Part shown: piece by piece, positions 1,953-28,173 of the stretch
Layout: the number at the start of each line of letters is the position of its first letter
Position numbering within the stretch: the first letter of the stretch is position 1
IMG/VR virus record: IMGVR_UViG_3300020477_000594
Location: 1-35,261 of that record
Source: a virus
Reading direction: 5' to 3' (one strand)
DNA: 35,261 nt
Program-made: the position numbers and the translations under genes
Notes under the pieces: generated by a model
The model's input: the letters and a program-made list of their open reading frames with translations, nothing else
Told to the model about the DNA's origin: nothing
Database searches by the model: none

Positions 1953-3878
1953 GTGGCATTCAACTCTGAGCTTCTACCCGTAGAACTGAACGGTGTTTCC
2001 TACGCAATAGATACAGAAATGTATCGACGCACCACAGTTCCTGTTGCCCGTCAACAACGAGATAACAGTAAAGAGCCGGGAGAAAACACTCTTGATACCA
2101 CAGGTGCATGGGTTAGATCACAAACAGATTGGTCCTATGGTGCAGGCCAACTGTATGTAGATAAAGAAGATTCAGATCGGCGTCGGTTTTATTCATCGCA
2201 AGGCATAGACATTTGGACTAAAGGTCAGATGACTTTGCTACCAACAACAGAAGACGCAGCTTCATCTCAAACGCTAGGCACAGAAGATCTAATAGTTAAA
2301 AGATTCGTAGCTACAGATGGTACTGAATATCTTTATCTTGTATCAGATTCAAACATTCTTTACAGCACTACCGGAGGAGCAAGTTGGGCAACATTCAGCG
2401 TCACGAACAACGTAACCAGCATTACCTCAGATGGGACATCTGTTTATATAGGGCGAGATACCACCAATACACCGCTCACAGCTACGCTAGGAAGCAGCAC
2501 AACATCAGCTTACGGGACAGAAACACCAGACATTCTCGCTGTTGTCGCTGGTCGTATGATCGGTGCAGATGCTAACTCGATTTACGAACTCGATTCTTCA
2601 GGTGCAAAGGTTTCATCCTCATTAGATTTTTCGTTTTCGCTTTCATCAACAACATGGGTTGCAGTAACAGCAGCTTCCAATGGTATCTATGCGGCAGCTA
2701 ACGCTGACAACACAGGCGCTCTCTACTACATAGGGGTTAACAACGCTGACGGGACATTGCGTACCCCAACTATCGCTGCTTCCTTACCTCGGAACGAAAC
2801 CATTAACGCAATTATTTCTTATGCAGGTCTTATAGGTGTAGCCACAAGTGTGGGTTTTCGGTTAGCTTTAATCGATCAAAGCTCATCAGGTCTTACCTTA
2901 GGGCCAGCGATTGACACAGCGGGAGAAGTTTATTCTCTTGAAGCTGATGGCAGATTCATTTGGTTTGGAGCAGACAATGCACAGGTTTACCGTGCAGATC
3001 TATCCAAGTTCACAGAGATACTTGTTCCTGCTTACGCATCAGATCTACAAATGTCAGGCACAGTAGCGGCAGGAGACAAGGTAGTTTCTTTAGCTCGTTT
3101 AAATAACTCTTCTGACCCGAAGCTATTCCTTGCTGTGAACAAAGCTTCAGGGGCTGGTGTCCTTTATAAAGAAAGTTACACCGGGGTAAAGGTATCTTCT
3201 GGAGAACTAATCGCAGGAGAATGTACGTGGTCAACGGTAGTTCCGAAGCTGTTACGGTCAGGTGTCATCGACCTTGACCGTTCACAATATGAGCGATCTA
3301 AAACACCGTATCGTGAATCAGGTACTGACTACACAGACGGGGATAACACCTACACATTGGGTGAAGAAACAACAACTGCCGCAGGAAAGATACGACTTAA
3401 AGCAGTCAATCGACAGAACACTTCTGCTTACATTCCTAGTTCAACAGGTTCTCTAACAACAGGGAATGCAGCTACATTTGTGTTCCCAACTGATGAGTTG
3501 ACAGCAATCTCTTATGATTTAACTGTTGAATTGGAAAGGTCAGCTACAGCTACGACTGTCGCACCTATTTGCCATGACTGGCAGCTAACTGCTGTCGCTG
3601 TGCCACCTCGCATAGACGAAATTATTCTTCCTATCTTTTTAAAACGAGAAGTAAGAACAGCACGAGGCTCTGGCATAAACAAAACTCTTGCAGCTAAAGC
3701 AACCTTCGATAACCTTCGCACATTAATGGACAGAGGTGAAGCGATCACTTATAAAGAAGGTGACCGCACAGATACAGTGACCATTGAAAGATTAGAAATG
3801 CAACCCGAACGTCTATCCGACGACGGTGGCTGGTGGGAAGGTACCCTATTAATTAGGTTATTAACTGTACCTAATTAG
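1953..3878 (+). CDS. Large beta-rich tail protein (propeller-like repeats)
   Basis: 641 residues, GTG start one base after the previous stop. Residues 100-370 contain repeated short beta segments, one with an Asp-box-like turn (SDSNILYSTTGGASW), resembling BNR/propeller blades. The C-terminal 100 residues (from about 540) turn into a compact domain ending in a loop- and Trp-rich stretch (GGWWEGTLLIRLL). No signal peptide is present. It is probably a tail, baseplate or host-contact protein; phage proteins with a propeller-like centre often sit there. The stop codon lies in a small hairpin (3851-3876) just before the SD of the next gene. No specific family is recognised. Confidence 0.7.
   Translation: MAFNSELLPVELNGVSYAIDTEMYRRTTVPVARQQRDNSKEPGENTLDTTGAWVRSQTDWSYGAGQLYVDKEDSDRRRFYSSQGIDIWTKGQMTLLPTTEDAASSQTLGTEDLIVKRFVATDGTEYLYLVSDSNILYSTTGGASWATFSVTNNVTSITSDGTSVYIGRDTTNTPLTATLGSSTTSAYGTETPDILAVVAGRMIGADANSIYELDSSGAKVSSSLDFSFSLSSTTWVAVTAASNGIYAAANADNTGALYYIGVNNADGTLRTPTIAASLPRNETINAIISYAGLIGVATSVGFRLALIDQSSSGLTLGPAIDTAGEVYSLEADGRFIWFGADNAQVYRADLSKFTEILVPAYASDLQMSGTVAAGDKVVSLARLNNSSDPKLFLAVNKASGAGVLYKESYTGVKVSSGELIAGECTWSTVVPKLLRSGVIDLDRSQYERSKTPYRESGTDYTDGDNTYTLGEETTTAAGKIRLKAVNRQNTSAYIPSSTGSLTTGNAATFVFPTDELTAISYDLTVELERSATATTVAPICHDWQLTAVAVPPRIDEIILPIFLKREVRTARGSGINKTLAAKATFDNLRTLMDRGEAITYKEGDRTDTVTIERLEMQPERLSDDGGWWEGTLLIRLLTVPN
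3851..3876. repeat. Inverted repeat at the end of the 641-aa gene
   Basis: AATTAGGT (3851-3858) and ACCTAATT (3869-3876) form an 8-bp stem with a 10-nt loop. The 3' arm runs into the TAG stop (3876-3878) and touches the AGGGAG SD of the exonuclease gene. Ribosomes finishing the upstream gene would melt it, which would couple translation. It is not a terminator because no T-run follows. Confidence 0.4.
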
Positions 3879-12193: not shown

Positions 12194-12281
12194 ACTGTCC
12201 CTCCTATTTTGTAACACCCTTATTCTCTCGATCCGCTCAACTACACGTTGATTCCACTCACGACTAGTCAAGTCACAAGGA

Positions 12282-12305
12282 GAGCGACGTTCGCTTACGT
12301 CGCTC
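12282..12305. repeat. 9-bp hairpin in leader region
   Basis: GAGCGACGT (12282-12290) and ACGTCGCTC (12297-12305), perfect, 6-nt loop. It follows the stop of 12357-12683 and precedes 12041-12193. It is next to the competing AAAGTTTG repeats at 12307-12337, so both may be one folded leader. Confidence 0.5.
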
Positions 12306-12306
12306 C

Positions 12307-12337
12307 AAAAGTTTGAATCCAAACTTTTTAAAGTTTG
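12307..12337. promoter_or_regulatory. Attenuator-like competing stems
   Basis: Three segments alternate: AAAAGTTTG (12307-12315), CAAACTTTT (12320-12328) and AAAGTTTG (12330-12337). The middle one can pair with either neighbour (9 bp or 8 bp) but not both. This is the layout of a transcription attenuator or RNA switch. It lies in the 163-nt gap between gene 12357-12683 and gene 12041-12193. No consensus ligand domain is recognised. Confidence 0.45.
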
Positions 12338-12356
12338 GCCGCCGGAGGCAAAAAAT

Positions 12357-12683
12357 TTATACATCAAATGCCTCCTGTCCATCACATTCAGCCCTATGTC
12401 CACAAACAAGTCTTTCCTCGAACCTGAACTCAGTACTGTTGTAACCCTCTCCCTCGTTCTCTCCAATCTGTACCCAAACAGGAGCCTTAAAGTAAAACCG
12501 AGCTTTCCTAGGCTTAAAACACCAAGCAGTCTCTCCTCGCCAACCCCCAAGCTCCTCAACCTTCCAGTCAAGAAATTTAGGAGCCACGCAATCACCACTA
12601 ATCAACTCCCCCCACTCATCCTTCTCAATCAAAAGTCTCTCCCCCCACTCATCCCACTTCACGCCACTTCTAAACTCAGTCAT
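12357..12683 (-). CDS. Hypothetical protein, 108 aa, first leftward gene
   Basis: 108 residues, SD GGAAAGGGAAGTA before ATG at 12683. The N-terminus repeats WDEWGERLLIEKDEWGELI (two DEWGE.L units). Further on there are Trp/aromatic residues and a Cys-His group near the end (CGHRAECDGQEAFDV). No known family. It is the first gene of the leftward block beside the long non-coding region, a usual place for an early regulator or host-takeover protein, but that is inference. A plus-strand frame over the same bases (12396-12815) is Pro/Ser/Leu-rich noise. Confidence 0.7.
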   Translation of the reverse strand: MTEFRSGVKWDEWGERLLIEKDEWGELISGDCVAPKFLDWKVEELGGWRGETAWCFKPRKARFYFKAPVWVQIGENEGEGYNSTEFRFEERLVCGHRAECDGQEAFDV

Positions 12684-12740
12684 TACTTCCCTTTCCGCCC
12701 TACTTCCCTAAGCGGGCTAAAGCCCTGGAAACGTGAATTT

Positions 12741-12899
12741 GAGTGCTTGTCAAGTACCCCGAAGCTTCACCGGTTTTATGTTACAGAGTCTCCCTTTCTC
12801 TCCTCTGTAACATAAAAGCAATCTCCGCCCGGCACCAACCAACGATCATCAAGAGAGATTGCAGGTGAAGTCGCTTGCGAGGGTACTTTACAAGTGCTT
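12741..12899 (+). ncRNA. Compact three-way-junction RNA domain (predicted)
   Basis: P1: 12741-12759 with 12881-12899, 18 of 19 pairs (three of them G:U on plus-strand RNA). P2: 12765-12771 with 12864-12870, 7 bp. P3: TTTTATGTTACAGAG (12774-12788) with 12803-12817, 15 bp perfect, loop of 14 nt. P4: GCAATCTC (12818-12825) with 12855-12862, 8 bp. Junction linkers are only 2, 0 and 1 nt. The G:U pairs fail (become A:C) on minus RNA, so the plus strand is favoured. It would read away from the leftward genes. No known RNA family is recognised. A DNA function (origin or packaging site) is possible too. Confidence 0.55.
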
Positions 12900-12914
12900 A
12901 AACCCGAAGGGTGG

Positions 12915-13012
12915 CCTTATCCGACGATTGCCTGTTTCTCATTCTCGTTCTCGTTCTCCCTTTCTCGTTCTCGTTCTCCGTTCTCGTTGGCAATCTGCGA
13001 AGTCGGATAAGG
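12915..13012 (+). ncRNA. Iteron hairpin with pyrimidine-repeat loop
   Basis: CCTTATCCGAC (12915-12925) pairs with GTCGGATAAGG (13002-13012), 11 bp. Directly inside, GATTGCC (12926-12932) pairs with GGCAATC (12989-12995), 7 bp, leaving a 6-nt bulge on one side. The 56-nt loop holds eight TTCTC repeats mostly spaced 6 nt (from 12936 to 12985). The 12-mer TCTCCCTTTCTC in this loop (12955-12966) is identical to the loop of P3 in the neighbouring junction (12789-12800). Confidence 0.55.
12936..12986. repeat. Eight TTCTC iterons (TTCTCG type)
   Basis: TTCTC starts at 12936, 12942, 12948, 12954, 12962, 12968, 12974 and 12981, mostly 6 bp apart. On the minus strand this is a purine repeat (CGAGAA). 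Short, regularly spaced repeats inside a hairpin loop could bind a repeat-specific protein, form a triplex-type DNA, or present many single-stranded copies of an SD-complementary sequence in RNA. Confidence 0.75.
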
Positions 13013-13033
13013 ACATTCACGTACCCTCCAAAA

Positions 13034-13107
13034 GGCCCGCCAACCACGAGTGAGATGAGCGACAGCGAAGTACTTTCGGCTTCGCTTTGCCGAAAGTCGA
13101 ACGGGCC
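13034..13107. other. Hairpin with two competing folds
   Basis: Outer GGCCCG (13034-13039) and CGGGCC (13102-13107). Inner fold 1: ACTTTCGGC (13072-13080) with GCCGAAAGT (13089-13097), 9 bp. Fold 2: AGCGAAG (13064-13070) with CTTCGCT (13080-13086), 7 bp. Fold 1 and fold 2 share bases and cannot coexist. Switch-like, but it could be chance within a GC-rich block. Confidence 0.45.
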
Positions 13108-13125
13108 AGCCTATCGCTTATACCA

Positions 13126-13192
13126 GTCAAGGCAGAATAGGCGCATCGCTTCGCGCCCTGACTTGACCACGGCAACACGCCCTTCGTTGCCG
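13126..13192. other. Two further tandem hairpins
   Basis: GTCAAGGCAG (13126-13135) with CTGACTTGAC (13158-13167) pairs at 9 of 10 positions, inside which GGCGC (13140-13144) pairs with GCGCC (13153-13157). Next, CGGCAAC (13170-13176) pairs with GTTGCCG (13186-13192), 7 bp perfect. They follow directly on 13034-13107, giving an almost unbroken chain of stems from 12741 to 13192. No T-run follows either of them. Confidence 0.5.
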
Positions 13193-13317
13193 ACAAAACC
13201 GCACACACCAACACACACACCCTCCTCACCAACCGACACCCAACAACCCCCACCCCACCAACACAACCACTCACAAACACCACCCACCCCCACCACCCAA
13301 ACCTTTAGTCTCCCCAC
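13193..13317. other. Nearly G-free AC-rich tract
   Basis: About 125 nt with only a few G and few T on the plus strand: runs such as CACACACCAACACACACACC and CCACCCACCCCCACCACCC. The minus strand has several GGG runs. Little structure would form in plus RNA or single-stranded plus DNA. The sharp change from the hairpin-rich block to this tract is abrupt. It may be a single-strand loading site, an mRNA or ncRNA linker, or a protein-binding DNA. Confidence 0.7.
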
Positions 13318-13379
13318 CCCCGTGTGGTCAACTGCGTTTGTTTGGTTCGCAAGGGGGTATGTGCCGACCCTCCCCCTTA

Positions 13380-13393
13380 ATAACACGTGTTAT
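13380..13393. promoter_or_regulatory. 14-bp perfect palindrome, possible operator
   Basis: ATAACACGTGTTAT reads the same on both strands, core CACGTG. It lies close to where the composition turns from AC-rich to GT-rich. TTATAC at its right end resembles a -10 element, which would put a repressor or activator site over a promoter, but no -35 fits. A dimeric DNA-binding protein is a fair guess. Confidence 0.45.
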
Positions 13394-13440
13394 ACGGTGT
13401 TTTGGCGTGTTTGGTTCAGTTGTTTGTTTGGTGTGTGGTT
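13394..13440. other. GT-rich tract
   Basis: 47 nt nearly free of C (GTGTTTTGGCGTGTTTGG..., then GTTTGTTTGGTGTGTGG). It mirrors the AC tract on the other side of the palindrome: minus RNA from here is also AC-rich. GGTGTGTG (13430-13437) is the exact complement of CACACACC (13202-13209), so long-range pairing is possible. Confidence 0.6.
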
Positions 13441-13504
13441 TATACCTTGGTTCCTCCGAGTGTTGAGGCCTCTCTTGCCTTGACCTAACCGCTCGTGTTG
13501 GTCG

Positions 13505-13562
13505 CTCCGTGCCCCCCCTGTGGGCCGTCGTGTCTGGACACGGAGTCAGATGCCCCTCTGAC
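13505..13562. other. Two small hairpins before the rightward genes
   Basis: CTCCGTG (13505-13511) with CACGGAG (13539-13545), 7 bp, and GTCAGA (13545-13550) with TCTGAC (13557-13562), 6 bp with a TGCCCC loop. Downstream, GAACCG (13571-13576) can pair with CGGTTC (13612-13617). They lie in the leader of the rightward operon. I checked for a tRNA and could not fold a cloverleaf. Confidence 0.4.
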
Positions 13563-13648
13563 GGGCGATCGAACCGTTGTTAGCGGCGAGTGCGTTTGTA
13601 CTGTATCATGTCGGTTCTGGGGGTTCACTCAATTTTTGGAGTTTTTTG

Positions 13649-13774
13649 ATGGCTGAAAAGAAAATGATTGTGGAGAGGGAGCGTTCCCAGATTGAAGCTG
13701 AAGAGATTTGGCGTTTGATGCGTGGTGATGGCAATCAGTCTCGTATCAATGACGGGAAACTCGCACCTTCGTAG
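13649..13774 (+). CDS. Small hypothetical protein, 41 aa
   Basis: 41 residues from MAEKKMIVERERSQ. The Met at 13649 is chosen because GGAG lies 8 nt upstream; the frame also reads further left without an SD. The sequence is charged and helical (ERSQIEAEEIWRLMRGDG). First gene of the rightward block. It ends 6 nt before the next ATG. Function unknown; size and place fit an accessory or regulatory protein. Confidence 0.65.
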   Translation: MAEKKMIVERERSQIEAEEIWRLMRGDGNQSRINDGKLAPS

Positions 13775-14787: not shown

Positions 14788-16719
14788 ATGCCATCAGGGA
14801 AAGCAATAACTGTAGAGAAATGGGCGGATTATCAAGCTCTTCGCCGTCAAGGGAAGTCGCTTTATGCCGCAGCAAAAGAATGCGACATTTCCTACCACGC
14901 TTGCCGAGACGCAGAAGGGGGCAAAGCTCCGAGAAATTTCATCGCCGCCCAAGAAGCGCTGGGGCAAACAATCCAGCCAGAGGTGCCTCAATATGATGAC
15001 CTTTGTCCTGAGGCGCAGGCTGCGTATGACAATATCGAAATCTTTGCCAAAAGGTATTTCGGCATTATTTTACAACCGTGGCAGATTGAAGCAACCGAAC
15101 GGATCATGGGTCTGCTCGAAACAGAATACGAAGAGTATGTAGTTATCAACGCCCCACCGGGTACAGGTAAATCCACGTTTTTTGCGAAAGTTTTACCTGC
15201 GTGGGCTACAGTTCGGAACCGTGCCATTCGTGGCATGATCGGGTCTTCTACGCAGCGTTTGGCTGAGTGGTATTGCCGCAGGTTGCGTGCCGAGTTAGAT
15301 CGAGCGCATCCGGTTAGAGCCGAATTAAACGATGTTCGTTTAAATTTGGCGGTTGACGCCGAGGCCACGCTGCAAGAAGACTTCGGAATGTTTAAACCAG
15401 ACTCGTCAGAGATCTGGCGTGCCGAAGCATTCACTGTGTTACAGAAAGATGACACACCGCTATCGCAGAAAGAACCTACATGGTCCGCATTCGGTATGGA
15501 CTCCGGGTTCCTTGGTGGTCGCTTTGACCTAGTTATCTGGGACGACGTATACGACCCTCGCAAAATGAGATCCGCTGAAGCCCGAGAAGATATGCGAAGA
15601 TGGTGGGATGAAGTGGCTGAAACTCGGCTCGAACCCGGTGGATTACTCGTATTACAAGGACAGCGAATGTCCGCTGATGACATTTACCGATACGCACTTG
15701 ATAAAGTTGCGCCCCCGGACGACTACGAACTCGAAGAATTCGATCCAGAAGATGCTCCAGAAGAGTGGCGTAAATATCATCACCTCAAATATCAGGCGCA
15801 TTATGACGAAATTTGTTCAGGTGATCCCGAAGAACACAAGCCCAGCGGGAAACCTTGGCCTGAAGGATGTCTCCTATATCCGAGGCGGCTACCGTGGCGA
15901 CGATTACGGCATATCAAAGCACAAACGCCAGATAGATTCGAAGTTCTTTATCAGCAGTCGGATGTAAACCCGGCCAATGTTCTAGTAGACCCTCTCTGGG
16001 TAAGCGGAGGACAAGGAAAAGATGGGGTACATCACCCCGGATGTTGGGATGATGACCGGGATTTATGGGAATTACCCGCAAATGTTGGCGGCGAAATGTT
16101 TGTTATCGCTACCGCCGACCCCTCTCCAGCAAACTTTTGGGCTATCCAATGTTGGGCTTACAACCCACAAACAGAGTTTCGCTACCTTTTAGAGTCATAT
16201 CGACGTAAGATGGATGCACCGTCCTTTTTGGACTGGAGCCATGAACAACAACGATTCACCGGTATAGCCGAAGAATGGTGGCAAATAAGCAACGATATGG
16301 GGCACCCGATTACTCATTGGGTTATCGAAGCTAACGCTGCACAGAAATTCATTCTCCAGTACGACCATTTCCGACGCTGGGCGGCATTACGAAATGTTCA
16401 ACTTATTCCGCATTACACGCATTCTAAAAATAAAGGCGACCCGAAATACGGGGTGCAAATGCTTGCTCCGATATGGCGTGTTGGCCGAGTGCGTTTGCCC
16501 GGTAAGCAGAACACTGAAGCAAGACCTCATTCGTTACTTCTCGTCAACGAAGTAACACGCTGGAATGCTGAAGGTACCGGTGCCAGAACAGATGACTGCG
16601 TTATGGCACAATGGTTTCTCGAACATAATTTAGAGAAACTTTACATGCCGACTACAATTAACAATCGACAGTGGCGTCCGACTTGGCTCACGGGTGACGC
16701 CGAACTTTTGGCGAGGTAA
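14788..16719 (+). CDS. terL: Terminase large subunit with N-terminal HTH
   Basis: 643 residues, SD AAGGGG. Residues 8-43 form a helix-turn-helix-like segment (VEKWADYQALRRQGKSLYAAAKECDISYHACRDAEGG). ATPase: Walker A NAPPGTGKST (121-130), Walker B DLVIWDD (247-253), and a coupling motif LQGQRMS. The C-terminal RNase H-like nuclease has ATADPSP (Asp444), WVIEAN (Glu514) and RTDDCVMA (Asp602/603). The enzyme cuts concatemers and pumps DNA through the portal. No separate small subunit is visible in the window, so the N-terminal HTH may do its DNA recognition. The portal follows directly (2-nt gap). Confidence 0.95.
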   Translation: MPSGKAITVEKWADYQALRRQGKSLYAAAKECDISYHACRDAEGGKAPRNFIAAQEALGQTIQPEVPQYDDLCPEAQAAYDNIEIFAKRYFGIILQPWQIEATERIMGLLETEYEEYVVINAPPGTGKSTFFAKVLPAWATVRNRAIRGMIGSSTQRLAEWYCRRLRAELDRAHPVRAELNDVRLNLAVDAEATLQEDFGMFKPDSSEIWRAEAFTVLQKDDTPLSQKEPTWSAFGMDSGFLGGRFDLVIWDDVYDPRKMRSAEAREDMRRWWDEVAETRLEPGGLLVLQGQRMSADDIYRYALDKVAPPDDYELEEFDPEDAPEEWRKYHHLKYQAHYDEICSGDPEEHKPSGKPWPEGCLLYPRRLPWRRLRHIKAQTPDRFEVLYQQSDVNPANVLVDPLWVSGGQGKDGVHHPGCWDDDRDLWELPANVGGEMFVIATADPSPANFWAIQCWAYNPQTEFRYLLESYRRKMDAPSFLDWSHEQQRFTGIAEEWWQISNDMGHPITHWVIEANAAQKFILQYDHFRRWAALRNVQLIPHYTHSKNKGDPKYGVQMLAPIWRVGRVRLPGKQNTEARPHSLLLVNEVTRWNAEGTGARTDDCVMAQWFLEHNLEKLYMPTTINNRQWRPTWLTGDAELLAR

Positions 16720-18491: not shown

Positions 18492-18889
18492 TGCCACGTA
18501 AAGGTAAAGGTTCCAAAACTCAACCAGTCCAGACAGCAACCGGTCAAACATATGGTGAAGCTGGAGTTCAAGAACAAGCACAAGAAATCGTGCCGTTGCC
18601 CCAAGTCATCGATGCTGAAATAGTAGAGCCTGCTCCTCGAACCGGTGCACAACCGGGGGTTATGGGTAGTCCCTTCAGGCAAACAGAGTTCCCAAATGAA
18701 TCTGTGATGACAGGAGCAAATTATTCTCAGGCAGCCGGTCCTCCGCTTTCAGCAGGACGGGCACAACAATTGCCAAGGTTTTTGCACATAATGGGTGCTT
18801 TAGCTAATAACCCCTACGCAGATGACGGAATGAAAGAAATAGTCCGTCGAATGGAACAATTCGTACCACCATCACCTAGAGCACGATGA
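18491..18889 (+). CDS. Small structural-region protein, 132 aa
   Basis: 132 residues, coupled to the portal stop. The first 90 residues are low-complexity (Gln/Ala/Pro/Gly) and basic at the start (MPRKGKGSKTQ). The last 35 form a small helical domain (QLPRFLHIMGALANNPYADDGMKEIVRRMEQFV). It overlaps the giant gene start by 4 nt (ATGA). Between portal and giant protein it may be an adaptor or chaperone for that protein, but this is inferred from place. No family match. Confidence 0.65.
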   Translation: MPRKGKGSKTQPVQTATGQTYGEAGVQEQAQEIVPLPQVIDAEIVEPAPRTGAQPGVMGSPFRQTEFPNESVMTGANYSQAAGPPLSAGRAQQLPRFLHIMGALANNPYADDGMKEIVRRMEQFVPPSPRAR

Positions 18890-21800
18890 GTTTCGGTAGC
18901 CGGGTCTGGAAGATATTCCGCAATGTCCCTGATATAGGGATACAAGCTGCGGACTTTTTTGTTGATGGCATCAGCGCATTGGGGGATGACGAGTTTGGTG
19001 TTGTCGAAGGTTTCATAGAATCGTGGGAAGATAATGTTTTAGGGAAACCTTCTGGCACAGGGACAGGTGAACGAAGCATTATCGGTGCGACCTTAGGGCC
19101 GCAAGGTATTGTTGGCGCAACTGTAGAAGCAGTACCCGAAGGTGTAAGAGAAGCAGTAGGAAGTGACCACTGGAACTTAATGCTCAGTGGATTAGATTTT
19201 ACATGGACATATGGGGTTGCCCGTCCAGTTGCGACTCTTGCCACTATCGCCAACATAAACGCACTTAGTTTTCAACAAAGCAAATATTTGCAAGCTATCC
19301 GCTCCGGGGAAGTAGATCCCCGTGTAGCAAGCATGAATGGTTGGCTCCCGTTTAATCATCGGACATTTGATCCGACGACGTGGCGTGAAGCATGGAATTT
19401 GACACAGCATCGATCACCCGGTCAAGCAGCGACGCTGGCGCTAAACGGTGTAAATATTTACAGTCCTGAAGAACTCGCAGAGTTCAAAGAAACAAATATG
19501 TATTACATAACGTCTGGGGTTCTGGACGCTGGGTTAGCTGTTGCGGCTGATCCAACTTATTTAGGAGCGAAAGCTGCACGGTTGCGTGTTCTTAATAGAC
19601 GAGCACGAAACCTTTACGACGAATCAGGTGGTTCGATTACTAGCGTCGGACCATATTTAGAAGATGGTGTTGTGCGCCCCGGATTGTTTGGCGAACGGCC
19701 TTACATGGAACCGTTTATCCAAACACAGCGTCCGGCAGCACAGCGAGAATCAATTGTTTTGCGGACACCAAGCCGCAGAGATATTCGCATTGGGGGCGAA
19801 AAGTTACACAACTGGATATTGGAACACGAAGCACCCGCATTAACACGGTTGCTTGGTGGAAGTGTCACAGATATGTTGACTATTCCGGGCGGCAGAAAAG
19901 TGGGAGATCCGGGCCGTGTACGTGACGAACTTTTCTTTGAAAACTATTCGTATAAACCTAAATGGATGGATGACCAACCATCCACAATGGATGAAACATT
20001 AACAAGCTACGTCGATGAAGCAGAGCGAATTAAAACAATATTCGACGATGAATTAGAGTCTGCATTAAACAACGGAGATATCCCTCTTCACGTGATAGGC
20101 ACAGGTGAAGCAAGCCTTGATCCTAAATGGGGTCTTCTCCCAGAGAACTACATTTGGGATTTAAACCCGGACAGTGTAGGTACTAAACAATGGCAGACTT
20201 TCGAAGACTCCACCCGAGCAGTCATTGACGATTTCCAAATTGCATTTGACAGTTTTGAAGAAACTCTCGCAAGCGGGGATCTCTGGACTGCTGCAAGTTT
20301 TGGGGAAGGCAAAGGACTATTCGACGGTGAAACGTTAGAACGGCTTCCCGAAAAAATAAGCCACATGATTCAGGATTATGGGCCTCTAGCGGAAGCTTTG
20401 GACGAGGCTGGCAGAAAAGCCAATGCCTCTGATCCTAGAGGTTTGTGGACAGTTTTGCGAAGCTTGGATGAATTCATCGAGGACACACTTGGTGTTTACA
20501 CTGACAGATTCAGTATTGATCCCACTAGTGATTTAGGCAGAGCATTACCTGAGCAATACCATCTATTAGCTGACGATCTTTATTCTTTGCGTGGACGCTT
20601 TAGAAATCTTTTGATTGAAAAGCCTTTGGCGGTACGTGCAAGAGAAGCGCTGAAACGCGCCAATGAAGAAGTACCTCCCTTTGACAGCCCAACTGAGCAA
20701 CTTGTTCGCAATAGTGGCTTCACAATGGCCTTACAAAATCTAATCGACTCTCATCGATCAGCAACCAGAACAAATCTCGTAGATGAACTAAACAATCTTA
20801 TTGAACGCTCTTTAAACGAAATAGATGGTAGCGAAAACTATGCAATAAATAATCTCTGGAATGCGCTCCACCCCGGACGGGCAAGTGCGGGATCTCGAAC
20901 ATTCAGAGAATTAATTGAACGGTTGGACGAACAGTTCCCCGGTATGGGTTGGGATGATTTCCTTGATAACGATTACCTAAGAGATGTTTTACGAAGACAA
21001 GCTGGGGGGGACGAAGATGCTCGTCGTCCATTTGATTGGTCTGAGTTCGCGGACGGTTGGCCTATTGAGGAAGGAAGACAAGAACGGTGGGCTATATATG
21101 TAGATCAAGCAACTACCGTCATAGAGGATTTACTTGACCGACAACGGAATACAGCACCGCTAAGAGATGCTGATACCCCTAATCCCTACGCAGATTTTGA
21201 ACAACGTATAGAACAAGTACGGCAAGTTATCGAAGACATTGTTGTTGAAGGTGCGATTGAAAGACGATTCGATGGTCCTGAAGATCGCGTAAATCTTTGG
21301 GGTCCAGAAGAGTTCGCAGCAATGCAATCAGGGTTTAATTATTTAGTCGCTGCCACAGACGAAATGATAGATGATTTCGTTAGAGCGGCAGTTCCTAATG
21401 AACTTTTAGAAATGCAAGACATATACCAAGATTCTCTTGCTAGCCAATCAGCTTTAATGGGGTTGGCTAGTTCAATGAGTCCAGATGATTGGAATCGATA
21501 TGTCGATGAACTCTACGGCAAAGATCGTTGGGCTGGGGCAAGAGGGTCATATCACACTGAAAAGTTTTTAGATCGTTTAACTCTACGTTTGTTTAAAGAG
21601 TTGCCTACATGGGGACCGTTCTATAAGGCATTGCCCAAAGACCAGCTTTGGCAGCGAGCACAAATATATGCACGTGTGGCTAATGGTGGTCCTGTAGATA
21701 GTTCTTCTTGGCTTCCTTATTACAATCTTATTCGTTTAGAAAAAGGAAACCCTGCTGTTAAAGCAGCGATGACAGAACAAGCAAAAGACTTTTCCTACAT

Positions 21801-24800
21801 TTGGTCTTTGTTGCGAGATATCGAAGCACCTGTTATCAGAACAAGAGAAAGAGGTGTTTTCGGTTCCGAAATCAGAAGTGTTTACGACAAAGATGTAACT
21901 GTTGATCCCATCGATAAATCCGTTACAGAATTCCGAACCGACATACTAAATATGTCTTATGACGAACCCGGATTAATAGTTCCCACTTATCCTCGGAACA
22001 TTGATGAAACAGCCAAACTTGCTGATGAAGGCATCGACAGATATATAGACCGTGGCAACGAACCGGGTGACCAAACTACTTATTCCTTGCCAACTTCAAT
22101 GAGAATTAGGCATAACCAAGAAAGAGCTACCGTTCACTGGCACTTTAGAGAAATTCGTCATGCACGACAAAACATTCTTGCGCTTGAAGAACAAATTCGG
22201 AAACGCAAATTCGATGAGAAAGTAAGAAAAGAAGATAAAATCTATCAACGTGATGAAGGGTTCAGCCTTTTGGATGAGGCCGTCGAGATTTTAGACGACC
22301 CGGAAGGTCCACATTTTGACCCTATTTCTAAAGCAAATGCTGAACGGTTACGTCTAACCCTTAAAGCTAAAGAAGCAGCCCACGCTCTTTATATCAAAAA
22401 CTATTTGTTTAGCCCACGTGCTTTAGCCCAAATGGCTGAAGTCCAAGGAAAGCGGGTTATCGAAGATTTAATGAATGAAGTCTTCGAAGCGAACGGAATG
22501 TGGGTTCAACCAGAAGCAGGACCGAATTCTCCAGCTTGGGCTTGGTCACAACTTGGAGCAGATGTATCAGAAGAAGCTTTACGTCAAGCTGGCGACATAA
22601 TTGAAAACTATGAACACGTGATGTTCGACCATACTTTAGGTCGAGAAATGGGTTTGACTGAGTTCCAAGATATGTTCCCAAGCCCACCTCCAGCAAGAGG
22701 ATTTGTTCGTGAGAGCGCAACTGATCTTATAGATTTTGCTGGGTTCGATCCGAATAGCCCCTATATGGAATTGATCGACCGCATTTCGGAAATGGATAGA
22801 TTTCCTTGGCAAGCAGTCTTAGGATTAGATGACGCATTAGTCGGAATGCTGGTTAAAACCTACGAACGTATTCCACCTATCGGATTTAAAGAAGATATAG
22901 CTACGGATGTTTTGCAGACAAGAACTGCTCCATTCGACGATCCAGTTCCCGAAATGCTTAGTTCTCCTGAAGCTCATTCTTTAGTCGCAGATCAAATAAT
23001 AGAAGCTGCGATGGCCCCGTTGAATCCTGCATTAGCTAAAGCTTTGCCGTCTGCCCCATCGACAAGGACAGGAGTGCTAGCGAAAACTTTGTTTAGCAAA
23101 TCAGGGCCGTTAGCAGGTCCGATGAATAGTCGCTTCGTTAGGCTGTTCTCGGAAAAAATTCCTCATGGAGTTATAAACGTCCATGACCGGAGTACCGTTG
23201 CTGGGCAACTTGAAGTTATGTTCCGTGAATTAGGACGCATCAATCTTTTAGTGCCTCCCGGCATGGGCAGACGTGAGAGAAAAGCAACGCTAAAGAACGC
23301 TGCGCCTGATACACCCCGACGTTTAGCTAGCGGTGAAGATTTTACGCTTCTTGATCTTGCGATTATGACCTACAAAGGTACGCCAGAACTTCCAGAACCG
23401 GCTCCTCGGAATCGGATAGAAGCAGAGCAACGTGTTGATGATCTAATGATCGACTTTCTTAATTCCTATGGGGATGAATTAGCAGTCAAAATTGATCGTC
23501 TTAATGAAGCGGCTCTTAACGGTGCAATAAACGCAGTAACTCCTCACCCAATATTTAAAGATGTTGATTGGGGAAGTGCCGGTGTTTCGGCTGCAATGAA
23601 AGGAATACTTCGAGGCGATATTGATGCAGCTAAACGTTTATTAGAAGATGCAGCAGAACACACAGAACGACGATACGGGAATAGTGATTTCACTGAAGTA
23701 GTAATTCCCGAATTGGGTGGGACAACATTTATTTATAAACCAATGTCTCCATCACAAATGCGGCAAACATTAGTGATGCCTCGGTGGGATAAATTCGAAC
23801 GCCTTTTCCAAGTTCTTCAAGGCGATATAAAAACTATTATTGGACCCAACGGAGAAAACCTAGATGTTTCTGTTAGCGCCAGAAATGCAATAGTTAGAGC
23901 GACACGTCGTGAAGCATTAACAATGTGGAAGCGTCATACGCTTCTGACTCCACGTTGGCAAATGGTAGTTAACACAGATTCGCAACTACGCAATGTTGCA
24001 CATTTAGGGGCTGCGATGGCGTTAGGGCGTCTTGGCGCATCGTTTGATGAATTACGTGTTCGCTGGCTTCGTAAAGCTGGGGTAGATATAAACGCTGTTG
24101 TAGCCGACAAACTCGTTGAGCAGTTGCCGGATTCGCTTACAGGGGCAGGTTGGGTTCAGCAAGTTGACTTTTATAAACGATCACATGATGAAGGTGTGGT
24201 GGGATTTGAAAGAACAATAGAAGAGTTTGTCGCTGATGCTATTGGAGAAGAGTATGCAAATAAGCGTGCGAATATAAGAACTCTTGCTATGACTGGATCA
24301 GGTTGGTTCTTTGGTGGTCCGGTAGGCGCTGCTGCTGCCGCTGGCCTTTACACAACATACAGTCGAGACAGTTTAACAAAACTTGCACGTCGCCAATTAG
24401 CTGATACATACGGTGTGGCTTTGCGAGCAGAAGCATTGGATCTGGTTGAACGTGCAAACAGACTAGATATTTCAGAATTTATGCGGGCGCAATATCCTGA
24501 CATTCCGCAGTATGCGCTTGACGAAGTAGCAGAGGTAAAAAGTGAACATTGGATAGCCCGAGATGCTACATACAATGATTGGATTAACGAAGCAGGTACA
24601 ACAGAATCTTGGATGTACAGGCGGCTGCTAGAAGATGAAGGCTTAATCGATGCAGAACATATAGCCCATCGTATAAATTGGCAGCTTCTCCAAGAACTAG
24701 GTGCGCGTCAAAGAGGCGAATACTATTTCGACAAGCTGGATCATACCCCAGTTTCTGACGAAGCTCTTAGAAATCTGCGTGCTATCACCAGATCACGATC

Positions 24801-27800
24801 TGACGGTAGTCGTGGTGACCAATTCAGGATAGAAGACATCCGTAATACTGAGGTATACACGAGAAGCTCGTATTTAACTCAACTTATTATTCAACACAGG
24901 TTTAACCAGCTAGCTGATGCTAATGGTGTTATCACTTGGGAACGGTCAACACGCCGGTCGTCGTCGCCTTCAAGAATGCCAGAGTTGGGGTTCTTCATTA
25001 GAGCAGAAGATGTAACTCAGATACTTGATACGCAAGGTTCGTTAAAGAATCTGGCAGAACAGTTGCAAACCACAATTAAAGATCGCAACGAAGTCGCTCG
25101 ACTATTAGCCACTCGTGCCGAAATTGTAAATGACTATCAAACTAAAATTGTTGGTGACGCAAAGTTAGACCCCAGCATGGAGAAACCAATCTCTATGCTT
25201 GAAGAGGCAGGAGAGATCTTAAGCGAGTGGGGTTACGGGTCAACACAAGTTGGTTCAACACGTGTAGATAAAGCATTTGGCAATACTCCACAGCAACAAG
25301 AAATTTGGCGACGTGGAATATCAGCTAATCCAATGGCAAGAGCGCAACTTGACGCTGAAGCTGATGTGCAAAGACGTTTTGAAAAATTCCAAGGCGCTCA
25401 CCAATACGACATACTGAACCAATACGAAGAAGCTAATTTTTCTAAAGCGTATGACGATTTCTTAATCCGCCATGTAATTCCACAGGATCTCGATAAAACA
25501 AATCTCGCTCAACAATTGTGGGCAAAAGTATTTTCGGAAACAGAAAGAGTGGGGGGATACGATGCTGACGAAATTGTTAAGTGGATGCGTGCCAATAATG
25601 TGCAAGAACTTCTTCCTGAAGAATGGCACGGGTTCGATCGAGGAATTGGGGATGGGCTTTACGAATTAGCAGTAAAAATGGGGTACGAAGCAAACAGTAT
25701 CTTGCCAAGTTCCGTAGATGTTTTCGATGAAGCAAGACGATCTCTGATACAAGGCACTCCCATTTCGTGGAATGTTGAAGTAGCTGCTGGTATCAGAAAG
25801 TTAAACCAACGGCACGAAGATTTTTGGATTTTATATAAGCAACTTGATAAGCAATACCGACAAGCAACAGGTTCTCGCTATTACCCCGACGAATTTTTTG
25901 AAGATCTATTTGGACCAAATAGAATCGAAGGTCCACGGTGGGTTGATGATTCTGATATAAGAGAAACCCCATTTAGGATGAGCGACTCAGGTCGTAAATG
26001 GGAAGACGTAGTTAGCTGGGACTCCATAAGACAAAATCTCCGTGGCCCCAGCACACTAGAAATTTTCCAACACTCATGGAATGAGACTGTTGCGAAATCT
26101 GTTGCTGGTGAGTCTCAGAATGTTTTAATTGCCCGCACGTTAAGCACAGACATAATCGAACAGATGCGGAGAACCGCTGTTTCCGATAGTTGGGATAACC
26201 TTCGCTCATTAACAGATTATGAAAAAGCCAAGCGTAAATCTGATCTAAGAGGTCAATACACTTGGGAATCTAACGGCATAGGCGACTTCGGTAAAGTCGT
26301 TACCGATTCTTCCTTTATCGATGCTCTGCAAAGCAAAAATATTATTGACCGATACAAAGGTTTGCTTGACGGCATCTTTGAAAATCTGACAATGGTCGAA
26401 GATTATCTTTCACGAGGCACTCTTTACGAAAGCATTTACACACGTGAAATCTTTGAAAATCTTCAGCTATATCGCTTAGACGATGCAGAAGGTGTCAACT
26501 ATCGAATTAGCCCCGAAGCTCTTAAAGGTGTAGTTAACAAAACAAGAGCTAGTGCTCTTCAACAAACTAAAGATGTTCTTTACGATTTGGCTAACCGTTC
26601 AAAGTTTGAAGAATTAGTTGGAGAAATCTCCCCGTTCTTTGGAGCGTGGCAGGAAGTTACAACACGATGGTTTGGTATAGCTGCTGAAAACCCAGTGTTT
26701 GTTTTCAGAATGTTGAAACTTTGGACTGTAGCAACAGCCGAAGATGAAAACGGACAAAGTATTTTGATGGTTCAGCTACCTGATGTCTTTGATTCAGAAA
26801 TTGACACAAAGTTCTTTGGTTCACACAAACTCTTTGGCAGTCTTTCTGTAGCTTCTCAAATGCCAATCGATTTAAATCTGCGTTCAGCTTCGTTAATCGG
26901 TGGCTTTGCGGGAACCGGGCCGATAGTTTCGTTCGCTGCAAGTGAACTTGCGATTGAAAATCCTGACATTTATGAGTCTCTCGATTTTCTGTTCCCTTAC
27001 GGTTTAGTAGAAGGAGGCAATGCACTTGAACGGTACGCTGCTGCTCATACACCTTCTTGGATAAAGAGCGCTGCATCAGTCGCTGGTCTTGACACTGACC
27101 GGAGAGCAGCAACAGCGGCGAGAGTGCTGCAAGATATTCTTGCTGAACAGTACATACAAGGGAATGTTCTACCTAATTCTGAAGCAGGGGCTAGACGGCT
27201 ACTCGATGAAGTAGAACGTCGAACCAAAATGATTTACTCGATGAGGATGCTTCGGTCTTTGGCAGTACCAGTTTCCTATCAACAACAGTCACCGTATTGG
27301 CCGATCCTTTCAGAGTTTTGGCGTACCGAAAAAGAATATGGTGATGAAGTAGCCGATCTTTGGTTGATGGAAAACCATCCAGAGCTTTGGTCAGCTACAG
27401 CACGGCGGACACTTGCTGATGGGGTTATAGCTGGATCGCTTGAAGGACATCGTTACTACGAAGATCACAAAGCTATGGCTACGGAATATCCTGAATTGGG
27501 AGCGTTTATAACCGGCGAAGTCGGAGCTATAGATGTGCAGTTTGCGTACAACAAAGCGGTTGCACAGATAGAACGACAAGAAGGCCGACGTGACACTCTG
27601 ACACCTGACGATTTCTTACATGAAGCAGGATCTAATTTAGGATGGAGAGAGTACCGGGTATTCCGCAATTCGTTGACTAATGAATTAAACAAGCGGATGC
27701 AAGCCGGTGGTTCGGGGAGCCTTAACGCACAATCAAACTTTGATTTGTGGAATCAACGACGGAATTTCGTTACAGAACTATCTCGCAAAAATCCAATGTG

Positions 27801-28173
27801 GGCCAGTGAGTTTAACAAGATTGGTGATCCGGTTACACAGAAGAAAATTTTGGAAGGCTTCAGGTTAATAGTTGAAGATGAAGCGTTTGCTTACCGTCCA
27901 GAAATTCCCCTTATCCAACGTTATTTGCAGTTACATGACGGTATAGCTCAAAGTCTTTTAGCACGAGCCGCAGCCACCGGCAACCGCTCATATTTGAGAC
28001 TTTCTTATACAAGAAATCAAGATCTTTCACGTCAATGGGAAATCGGAGTTTTGCAACTCTTGACGTTCCCAGACTTTGGAAATATATACGACAGGTACTT
28101 TAGTAATATCGAAAGTGTGAATACTTCTAATCTTTCTCAATTTGCGCCTGCGACATTAAGGACAGGTGACTGA
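18886..28173 (+). CDS. Giant virion-associated protein, 3,095 aa
   Basis: One continuous frame, more than a quarter of the window. Start coupled to the upstream stop (ATGA). Mostly helical and acidic, with no signal peptide. A Gly/Ala-rich hydrophobic segment (1803-1822) may cross or touch a membrane. Near 1686-1703 there is LLTPRWQ...N...RN and near 2582-2595 SPFFGAWQE...RW, both like motifs I associate with very large phage internal proteins, though I cannot name a family. No RNA polymerase motif set or peptidase motif was recognised. Position (between portal and the transglycosylase-like gene) suggests an ejection or internal protein. For comparison, N4 virion RNA polymerase is near 3,500 residues and T7 gp16 about 1,300. 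Confidence 0.8.
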   Translation: MSFGSRVWKIFRNVPDIGIQAADFFVDGISALGDDEFGVVEGFIESWEDNVLGKPSGTGTGERSIIGATLGPQGIVGATVEAVPEGVREAVGSDHWNLMLSGLDFTWTYGVARPVATLATIANINALSFQQSKYLQAIRSGEVDPRVASMNGWLPFNHRTFDPTTWREAWNLTQHRSPGQAATLALNGVNIYSPEELAEFKETNMYYITSGVLDAGLAVAADPTYLGAKAARLRVLNRRARNLYDESGGSITSVGPYLEDGVVRPGLFGERPYMEPFIQTQRPAAQRESIVLRTPSRRDIRIGGEKLHNWILEHEAPALTRLLGGSVTDMLTIPGGRKVGDPGRVRDELFFENYSYKPKWMDDQPSTMDETLTSYVDEAERIKTIFDDELESALNNGDIPLHVIGTGEASLDPKWGLLPENYIWDLNPDSVGTKQWQTFEDSTRAVIDDFQIAFDSFEETLASGDLWTAASFGEGKGLFDGETLERLPEKISHMIQDYGPLAEALDEAGRKANASDPRGLWTVLRSLDEFIEDTLGVYTDRFSIDPTSDLGRALPEQYHLLADDLYSLRGRFRNLLIEKPLAVRAREALKRANEEVPPFDSPTEQLVRNSGFTMALQNLIDSHRSATRTNLVDELNNLIERSLNEIDGSENYAINNLWNALHPGRASAGSRTFRELIERLDEQFPGMGWDDFLDNDYLRDVLRRQAGGDEDARRPFDWSEFADGWPIEEGRQERWAIYVDQATTVIEDLLDRQRNTAPLRDADTPNPYADFEQRIEQVRQVIEDIVVEGAIERRFDGPEDRVNLWGPEEFAAMQSGFNYLVAATDEMIDDFVRAAVPNELLEMQDIYQDSLASQSALMGLASSMSPDDWNRYVDELYGKDRWAGARGSYHTEKFLDRLTLRLFKELPTWGPFYKALPKDQLWQRAQIYARVANGGPVDSSSWLPYYNLIRLEKGNPAVKAAMTEQAKDFSYIWSLLRDIEAPVIRTRERGVFGSEIRSVYDKDVTVDPIDKSVTEFRTDILNMSYDEPGLIVPTYPRNIDETAKLADEGIDRYIDRGNEPGDQTTYSLPTSMRIRHNQERATVHWHFREIRHARQNILALEEQIRKRKFDEKVRKEDKIYQRDEGFSLLDEAVEILDDPEGPHFDPISKANAERLRLTLKAKEAAHALYIKNYLFSPRALAQMAEVQGKRVIEDLMNEVFEANGMWVQPEAGPNSPAWAWSQLGADVSEEALRQAGDIIENYEHVMFDHTLGREMGLTEFQDMFPSPPPARGFVRESATDLIDFAGFDPNSPYMELIDRISEMDRFPWQAVLGLDDALVGMLVKTYERIPPIGFKEDIATDVLQTRTAPFDDPVPEMLSSPEAHSLVADQIIEAAMAPLNPALAKALPSAPSTRTGVLAKTLFSKSGPLAGPMNSRFVRLFSEKIPHGVINVHDRSTVAGQLEVMFRELGRINLLVPPGMGRRERKATLKNAAPDTPRRLASGEDFTLLDLAIMTYKGTPELPEPAPRNRIEAEQRVDDLMIDFLNSYGDELAVKIDRLNEAALNGAINAVTPHPIFKDVDWGSAGVSAAMKGILRGDIDAAKRLLEDAAEHTERRYGNSDFTEVVIPELGGTTFIYKPMSPSQMRQTLVMPRWDKFERLFQVLQGDIKTIIGPNGENLDVSVSARNAIVRATRREALTMWKRHTLLTPRWQMVVNTDSQLRNVAHLGAAMALGRLGASFDELRVRWLRKAGVDINAVVADKLVEQLPDSLTGAGWVQQVDFYKRSHDEGVVGFERTIEEFVADAIGEEYANKRANIRTLAMTGSGWFFGGPVGAAAAAGLYTTYSRDSLTKLARRQLADTYGVALRAEALDLVERANRLDISEFMRAQYPDIPQYALDEVAEVKSEHWIARDATYNDWINEAGTTESWMYRRLLEDEGLIDAEHIAHRINWQLLQELGARQRGEYYFDKLDHTPVSDEALRNLRAITRSRSDGSRGDQFRIEDIRNTEVYTRSSYLTQLIIQHRFNQLADANGVITWERSTRRSSSPSRMPELGFFIRAEDVTQILDTQGSLKNLAEQLQTTIKDRNEVARLLATRAEIVNDYQTKIVGDAKLDPSMEKPISMLEEAGEILSEWGYGSTQVGSTRVDKAFGNTPQQQEIWRRGISANPMARAQLDAEADVQRRFEKFQGAHQYDILNQYEEANFSKAYDDFLIRHVIPQDLDKTNLAQQLWAKVFSETERVGGYDADEIVKWMRANNVQELLPEEWHGFDRGIGDGLYELAVKMGYEANSILPSSVDVFDEARRSLIQGTPISWNVEVAAGIRKLNQRHEDFWILYKQLDKQYRQATGSRYYPDEFFEDLFGPNRIEGPRWVDDSDIRETPFRMSDSGRKWEDVVSWDSIRQNLRGPSTLEIFQHSWNETVAKSVAGESQNVLIARTLSTDIIEQMRRTAVSDSWDNLRSLTDYEKAKRKSDLRGQYTWESNGIGDFGKVVTDSSFIDALQSKNIIDRYKGLLDGIFENLTMVEDYLSRGTLYESIYTREIFENLQLYRLDDAEGVNYRISPEALKGVVNKTRASALQQTKDVLYDLANRSKFEELVGEISPFFGAWQEVTTRWFGIAAENPVFVFRMLKLWTVATAEDENGQSILMVQLPDVFDSEIDTKFFGSHKLFGSLSVASQMPIDLNLRSASLIGGFAGTGPIVSFAASELAIENPDIYESLDFLFPYGLVEGGNALERYAAAHTPSWIKSAASVAGLDTDRRAATAARVLQDILAEQYIQGNVLPNSEAGARRLLDEVERRTKMIYSMRMLRSLAVPVSYQQQSPYWPILSEFWRTEKEYGDEVADLWLMENHPELWSATARRTLADGVIAGSLEGHRYYEDHKAMATEYPELGAFITGEVGAIDVQFAYNKAVAQIERQEGRRDTLTPDDFLHEAGSNLGWREYRVFRNSLTNELNKRMQAGGSGSLNAQSNFDLWNQRRNFVTELSRKNPMWASEFNKIGDPVTQKKILEGFRLIVEDEAFAYRPEIPLIQRYLQLHDGIAQSLLARAAATGNRSYLRLSYTRNQDLSRQWEIGVLQLLTFPDFGNIYDRYFSNIESVNTSNLSQFAPATLRTGD

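Follow-up and report, generated by a model that had tools for sequence, protein, structure and literature searches.

A candidate large structured RNA of lineage-variable architecture in a fixed intergenic slot of related phages

GOLLD and ROOL are ornate phage RNAs that are each built on a conserved core, and we know of no established function for either. In GOLLD, a conserved 3' region and a variable 5' region belong to one transcript. Both classes are frequently, if not universally, associated with tRNA islands, and both form multimeric cages made of RNA only. Another phage RNA, the packaging RNA of phi29, is organized around a compact three-way junction.

The DNA considered here, called the window below, is a linear virus record of 35,261 bases from a marine phage. 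The original prediction had picked out a gene-free run of hairpins at 12741-13192, likened it in scale to GOLLD and ROOL while recognizing neither, and proposed a new structured RNA. Our best reading is that the element is a lineage-variable ornate phage RNA, GOLLD- and ROOL-like in anatomy and a member of neither class. The structure, its covariation, its recurrence in relatives and the absence of an Rfam match have all held; that the molecule is RNA is what we infer. At the gathering level no Rfam family, GOLLD and ROOL included, matched the window or ten relatives, and at E <= 5 no GOLLD, ROOL, other large-RNA or phi29-type packaging RNA family appeared across 12200-13700. Matches at E <= 5 that fell on perfect hairpins were set aside as chance microRNA and snoRNA hits, plus one sub-threshold lncRNA.

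The slot and the fold of its occupant

The element lies between two blocks of genes. To its left, leftward genes serve recombination and DNA metabolism and include a RusA-like resolvase, a single-strand annealing protein and an exonuclease; to its right is a rightward late block, an operon of about 20 kb that includes the large terminase subunit (14788-16719, + strand; phrog_38, E 5e-48). The first leftward gene (12357-12683, - strand) encodes 108 amino acids of unassigned function, and its ORF is 59% conserved in the relatives L002 and L016 (relatives are cited by locus label). The first late ORF, of 41 amino acids, occupies 13649-13774 on the + strand, its start codon being read from the sequence. 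Between them, over 12684-13648, a conserved reading frame is absent, and ORFs running across it resemble those of relatives only over short stretches or where similarity of the DNA suffices as explanation, which agrees with its description as gene-free. ARAGORN found no tRNA or tmRNA in the 35-kb window. Far to the right, a 3095-aa ORF (18886-28173) has no Pfam match, and its C terminus weakly matches a PHROG of unknown function.

Over 12700-13220 the + strand folds to -178.4 kcal/mol, compared with a mean of -140.2 kcal/mol for shuffled sequences (z -6.3), and none of 100 dinucleotide shuffles, a control suggested with the original prediction, did as well; the run of stems at 12741-13192 is thus present as described and exceeds chance. 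The same segment gives z -7.5 with DNA parameters and z -2.6 on the minus strand. The extent and shape needed revision. The element starts at 12712, and its first 330 nt make a nested domain instead of a chain, closed by two stems that had been missed, Pout (12712-12718 with 13034-13040) and P0 (12731-12737 with 13016-13022). This domain holds a three-way junction and a stem termed P5, and three single hairpins follow it. Pout consists of 6 Watson-Crick pairs and 1 G.U in the window and L002; its 3' arm, AAAAGGCCCG, is conserved in L002 and L015, and the aligned L018 stretch reads AAAAGGCC. One of the stems first proposed, GGCCCG at 13034-13039 with CGGGCC near 13103, can form and competes with the longer Pout, which is favoured because it appears in the minimum-energy RNA fold and because L015 has an equivalent stem of 13 bp.

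All stems are given as they fold on the + strand. P1 (12738-12759 with 12881-12902) pairs at 21 of 22 positions, three as G.U, and shows one double change in L002. P2 (12762-12771 with 12864-12876) is interrupted by a 3-nt bulge, its two parts being 12766-12771/12864-12869 and 12762-12765/12873-12876, and its sequence is replaced in L002 (TCCGC/GCGGA). The P3 hairpin (12774-12817) has 15 perfect pairs (12774-12788/12803-12817) and a 14-nt loop, and contains a TGTTAC..GTAACA motif; a similar motif occurs in L015, L010, L011, L019 and L080. P4 (12818-12862) has 8 pairs (12818-12825/12855-12862); its counterparts in L018 and L015 are longer stems of other sequence. Linkers of 2, 0 and 1 nt join P2, P3 and P4, and the compact three-way junction of the original prediction was verified on the sequence.

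A small CCC-GAA-GGG hairpin (12903-12911), read directly, keeps its stem in L002 and L018 while its loop varies. P5 (12915-13012) comprises 11 pairs (12915-12925/13002-13012) and 7 pairs (12926-12932/12989-12995), with a 6-nt bulge (12996-13001) that reads TGCGAA in the window and TTCGAA in L002 and L018. The loop of P5 (12933-12988) carries TTCTCG-like repeats in the window, whereas L002 has an additional hairpin in its place. Of the three single hairpins, ACTTTCGG/CCGAAAGT (13072-13097) occurs in both the RNA and the DNA-parameter folds, and GTCAAG../..CTTGAC (13126-13167) and CGGCAAC/GTTGCCG (13170-13192) occur in the RNA fold. A C/A-rich linker almost devoid of G then extends over 13193-13300.

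Only four window-type sequences exist, one of them (L018) truncated, and covariation was judged with shuffles, slides and random placement; the carriers of this type are L002 (with its near-twin L016), L018 and L015. When the window, L002 and L018 were aligned by sequence only and the stems were taken from the window, covariation was found: 14 pairs have changed on both sides and 94.4% of cells are paired, which none of 500 shuffles reached, and sliding controls on the same alignment gave 0-2 double-changed pairs. The comparison with L002 gives 12 double changes, never matched in 20,000 random placements of its substitutions. P0 is one compensatory example (ACGTGAA/TTCACGT in the window, ACGCAAA/TTTGCGT in L002), and P5 is another, with CCTTATCCGAC/GTCGGATAAGG replaced by TCACATCCGAG/CTCGGATGTGA and double-sided changes at 9 of its 18 pairs among the three sequences; the one-sided bulge between its two covarying parts is conserved as TKCGAA. 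The strongly diverged L015 retains, besides its 13-bp Pout, a P3 of 16 bp in which TTTTATGTTACA is likewise present. A covariance model of the three-way junction (R2) matched, beyond its own two sequences, only L018 and L015, and missed the other subtypes. Covariation above sequence-only expectation, a general criterion for structured RNA, was found both for the element and for the late-leader RNA described below.

Relatives and the strand of the fold

Relatives were collected through the terminase protein. BLAST of the slot region against phage and plasmid records gave no match, and two extra scans, one for window-type elements and one for the pair of promoter-like elements described below, returned only contigs already known. 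No host could be assigned from genome matches, the single one being to a metagenome bin labelled Gammaproteobacteria, a match that could result from faulty binning. At 12305-12349 the window has a small pseudoknot-like module with CCGCCGGAGGC behind it, which occurs again in L002 (2850-2903 and 3745-3792), L018 (430-471) and L081 (3190-3236); by eye, compensatory changes preserve its second stem between L002/L081 and L018.

Where sequence coverage of the slot suffices, most close relatives are seen to carry a strongly folded element there, many with z of -5 to -25 over 500-780 nt (L010 -13, L019 -14, L011 -11, L112 -25, L015 -7, L081 -11); the folds of L102, L099 and L018 are less clear. Architecture varies by lineage, from hairpin chains to multi-branched domains to a 300-pair rod. 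L010, L011, L019 and L104 have multi-branched domains with long covarying helices of their own, and L104 differs from L011 by an inserted module, a single-stem expansion that by analogy resembles the expansion segments of other RNAs. Long rods or giant inverted repeats fill the slot in L085, L095 and L112, the last as a 299-pair hairpin (2835-3575, z -25). Element sequence turns over where terminases are 84-95% identical, and at a terminase identity of about 70% the element occurs only patchily among relatives.

Several further features of the rods were noted. The left arm of the L112 rod has one-sided bulges of 4-5 nt every ~8-12 pairs, and its right arm, by eye, resembles an inverted copy of the adjacent leftward gene. 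A TTG-start ORF of L112 (2679-3206) was considered as that gene and rejected, its frame differing from the one similar to other phages. In L112, L085, L095 and L099 the left arms, again by eye, overlap the start of the leftward gene for a WAEW-like protein, a candidate reading frame. Moreover, 17 of 31 close-relative contigs end in the roughly 3 kb that precede the terminase gene, in or close to the ornate element and the late leader, and others end 12-20 kb away. The cluster near the element may mark either assembly breaks at hairpins or a physical genome end.

Both strands of the slot fold well, yet z is weaker on the - strand in most loci. When internal G.U pairs were counted by the same procedure on both strands, 13 clearly structured loci gave 62 on the + strand and 13 on the - strand. 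Over all 19 loci tested the ratio was 89:48 and not unanimous: five less clearly structured loci showed no + preference (27:35), and L026 had none on either strand. The L112 rod alone has 28 G.U against 3 A.C, and G.U accounts for 3% (window) to 13% (L015) of + strand pairs. That said, the strand evidence is graded moderate, because the 13 loci were chosen by judgement after the counts had been seen, because they are related, and because G.U and A.C counted without filtering across entire upstream segments show no asymmetry, which appears only with well-supported helices. At that strength, the asymmetry points to selection on a folded + strand. Folds of single-stranded DNA would also favour G.T over A.C, with the same sign as RNA.

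A conserved RNA heading the late genes

Beyond the linker are two promoter-like elements, ACC..AGACTA (13306-13328, - strand), conserved in many relatives, and TGCCGA..TATACG (13362-13396, + strand), which in relatives stands at a near-fixed distance from the first, usually 55-57 bp. Judged by position and conservation, the pair looks like divergent promoters. If it is, late RNA would begin at about 13396 and the variable element would either be transcribed separately or belong to a leftward leader. A search for a + strand promoter left of Pout gave no significant site, and such a promoter for the element would have to sit within the leftward gene. Sigma-70 promoters and intrinsic terminators showed no excess over shuffles; no terminator lies within the element, and a plain terminator array was rejected on that ground.

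In the nearest phages, conservation over 13396-13608 (+ strand) exceeds that of the surrounding coding sequence, and an alignment of 25 phages defines this block, with a sharp end at TGTATCAT, as the conserved leader of the late operon. Its core (13498-13586, + strand), about 300 bp downstream of the variable element, folds as a second structured RNA. A covariance model of this RNA (R1) matches 50 of the 55 loci searched, upstream of the terminase gene in loci fetched by terminase; copies elsewhere include L002 4066-4160 and L037 5366-5457, among others. Double-sided changes affect 12 of 18 pairs, 97.4% of cells are paired, and there are 171 double-change cells against 52 in shuffles, counted on an alignment fitted to R1; the unfitted alignment A3 gives the same picture. 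Within a short P1 lie a P2 that is long and variable and a hairpin whose loop reads YTYTRAC; another hairpin follows, the loops of both hairpins being 7 nt. The thermodynamic z is about 0, so folding energy alone would have missed this RNA. Rfam contained no match to it. Its position suggests that it is the leader of the late operon, and it is a candidate antitermination or regulatory leader.

Candidate functions and known systems

Our tentative preference, at somewhat less than even confidence, is for a large structured noncoding RNA of the + strand, from about 12712 to 13192 and possibly longer, that works through its folded shape. The slot between the leftward and late blocks would hold an occupant rebuilt in each lineage as stems are added, replaced or lengthened, and the shape would act during infection, either as a GOLLD- or ROOL-like RNA scaffold or as a decoy that draws off a host factor involved in RNA binding or defence; a decoy would account for the rapid turnover. 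Transcription of the element, its action as RNA rather than as single-stranded DNA, and a scaffold or decoy role are what we infer. A more doubtful but quite possible extension is that these phages carry a new kind of RNA locus, a fixed slot in which even close relatives have exchanged one architecture of a large, ornate + strand RNA for another, beside a conserved new late-leader RNA, as if the elaborate fold itself, not any particular sequence, were selected there. A fast-changing ornate RNA in a fixed slot would supply naturally occurring variants for learning which property is under selection: shape, size or binding partner.

Among the alternatives, a replication origin ranks highest, and we regard it as unlikely. 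The element could be RNA-primed, through a ColE1-like initiator RNA, or could supply + strand hairpins for single-strand initiation, with its fast change reflecting selection against incompatibility. Phage origins based on noncoding RNA exist and have been proposed for some mycobacterial prophages (PMC7157519), but those cases have to do with maintaining a prophage, and the protein searches made here recognised no partition genes. The slot is central and intergenic, between divergent gene blocks and at the minimum of cumulative GC skew, as an origin would lead one to expect, although the skew is confounded by divergent transcription, and neither iterons nor an initiator gene were seen. Hairpins of single-stranded DNA would likewise prefer G.T to A.C; long nested, multi-branched folds and stem-by-stem expansion, however, are commoner in RNAs. 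The original prediction had named a DNA element for origin or packaging as its other option, which now appears the less likely one, even if the G.T preference and the skew minimum fit it. Next, and seemingly improbable, is that the element forms the structured 5' leader for the leftward operon, with - strand transcription starting at the promoter-like element near 13300 and the leader controlling the first leftward genes. Transcription from the conserved ACC..AGACTA would run through the other strand of the element, which in the window stops about 30 nt short of the leftward start codon, and the arms in L112, L085, L095 and L099 that by eye overlap the leftward gene would suit such a leader; yet the 62:13 count of internal G.U favours the opposite strand, the three G.U of P1 become A.C on the - strand, and the - strand z is the weaker in most loci.

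Less probable again is a functionless DNA-level by-product: a fragile site where inverted repeats have been made and kept perfect, either by template switching or by correction of one arm against the other. Entire helices swapped at once, the giant inverted repeats of L112, L085 and L095, a G.U share that is low and alike on both strands in several loci, and the ending of more than half of the close contigs near the element would all be natural outcomes of such events. Wobble pairs are nevertheless strand-asymmetric, an unpaired bulge and pieces of sequence are conserved across diverged elements, and nearly all close relatives keep the element in a compact genome. Last in rank, and very improbable, is a packaging signal or packaging RNA by the terminase genes, with a pRNA-like three-way junction. 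The terminase gene is about 1.6 kb downstream and the 0-3 kb before it hold a cluster of contig ends, but these cluster 12-20 kb away too, and clustering can be an assembly effect; no Rfam family matched, and the sequence turnover is hard to square with terminases that are 84-95% identical.

A structured noncoding RNA thus remains our preferred reading, and it shares traits with several known systems. Like the prophage origins of the mycobacteriophages Alma and LadyBird, the element spans 400-500 bp of noncoding DNA whose place in the genome is fixed; theirs are backed by deletion and plasmid replication, whereas the element here is known from its sequence. It has the compact three-way junction of the phi29 packaging RNA but is much larger, matches no Rfam family and does not lie in a phi29-type genome. 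With ROOL it would share large size, a multi-branched form, a phage origin and an unknown function, but it matches no ROOL covariance model, and its architecture is lineage-specific where ROOL has a conserved fold. With GOLLD it would share the character of a large phage RNA of many stems; it differs in having no covariance-model match, no accompanying tRNAs in the window and no conserved core within the variable element. Here the variable element is followed by the conserved RNA at 13498-13586, and the two may be separate transcripts, where GOLLD joins its conserved and variable regions in one.
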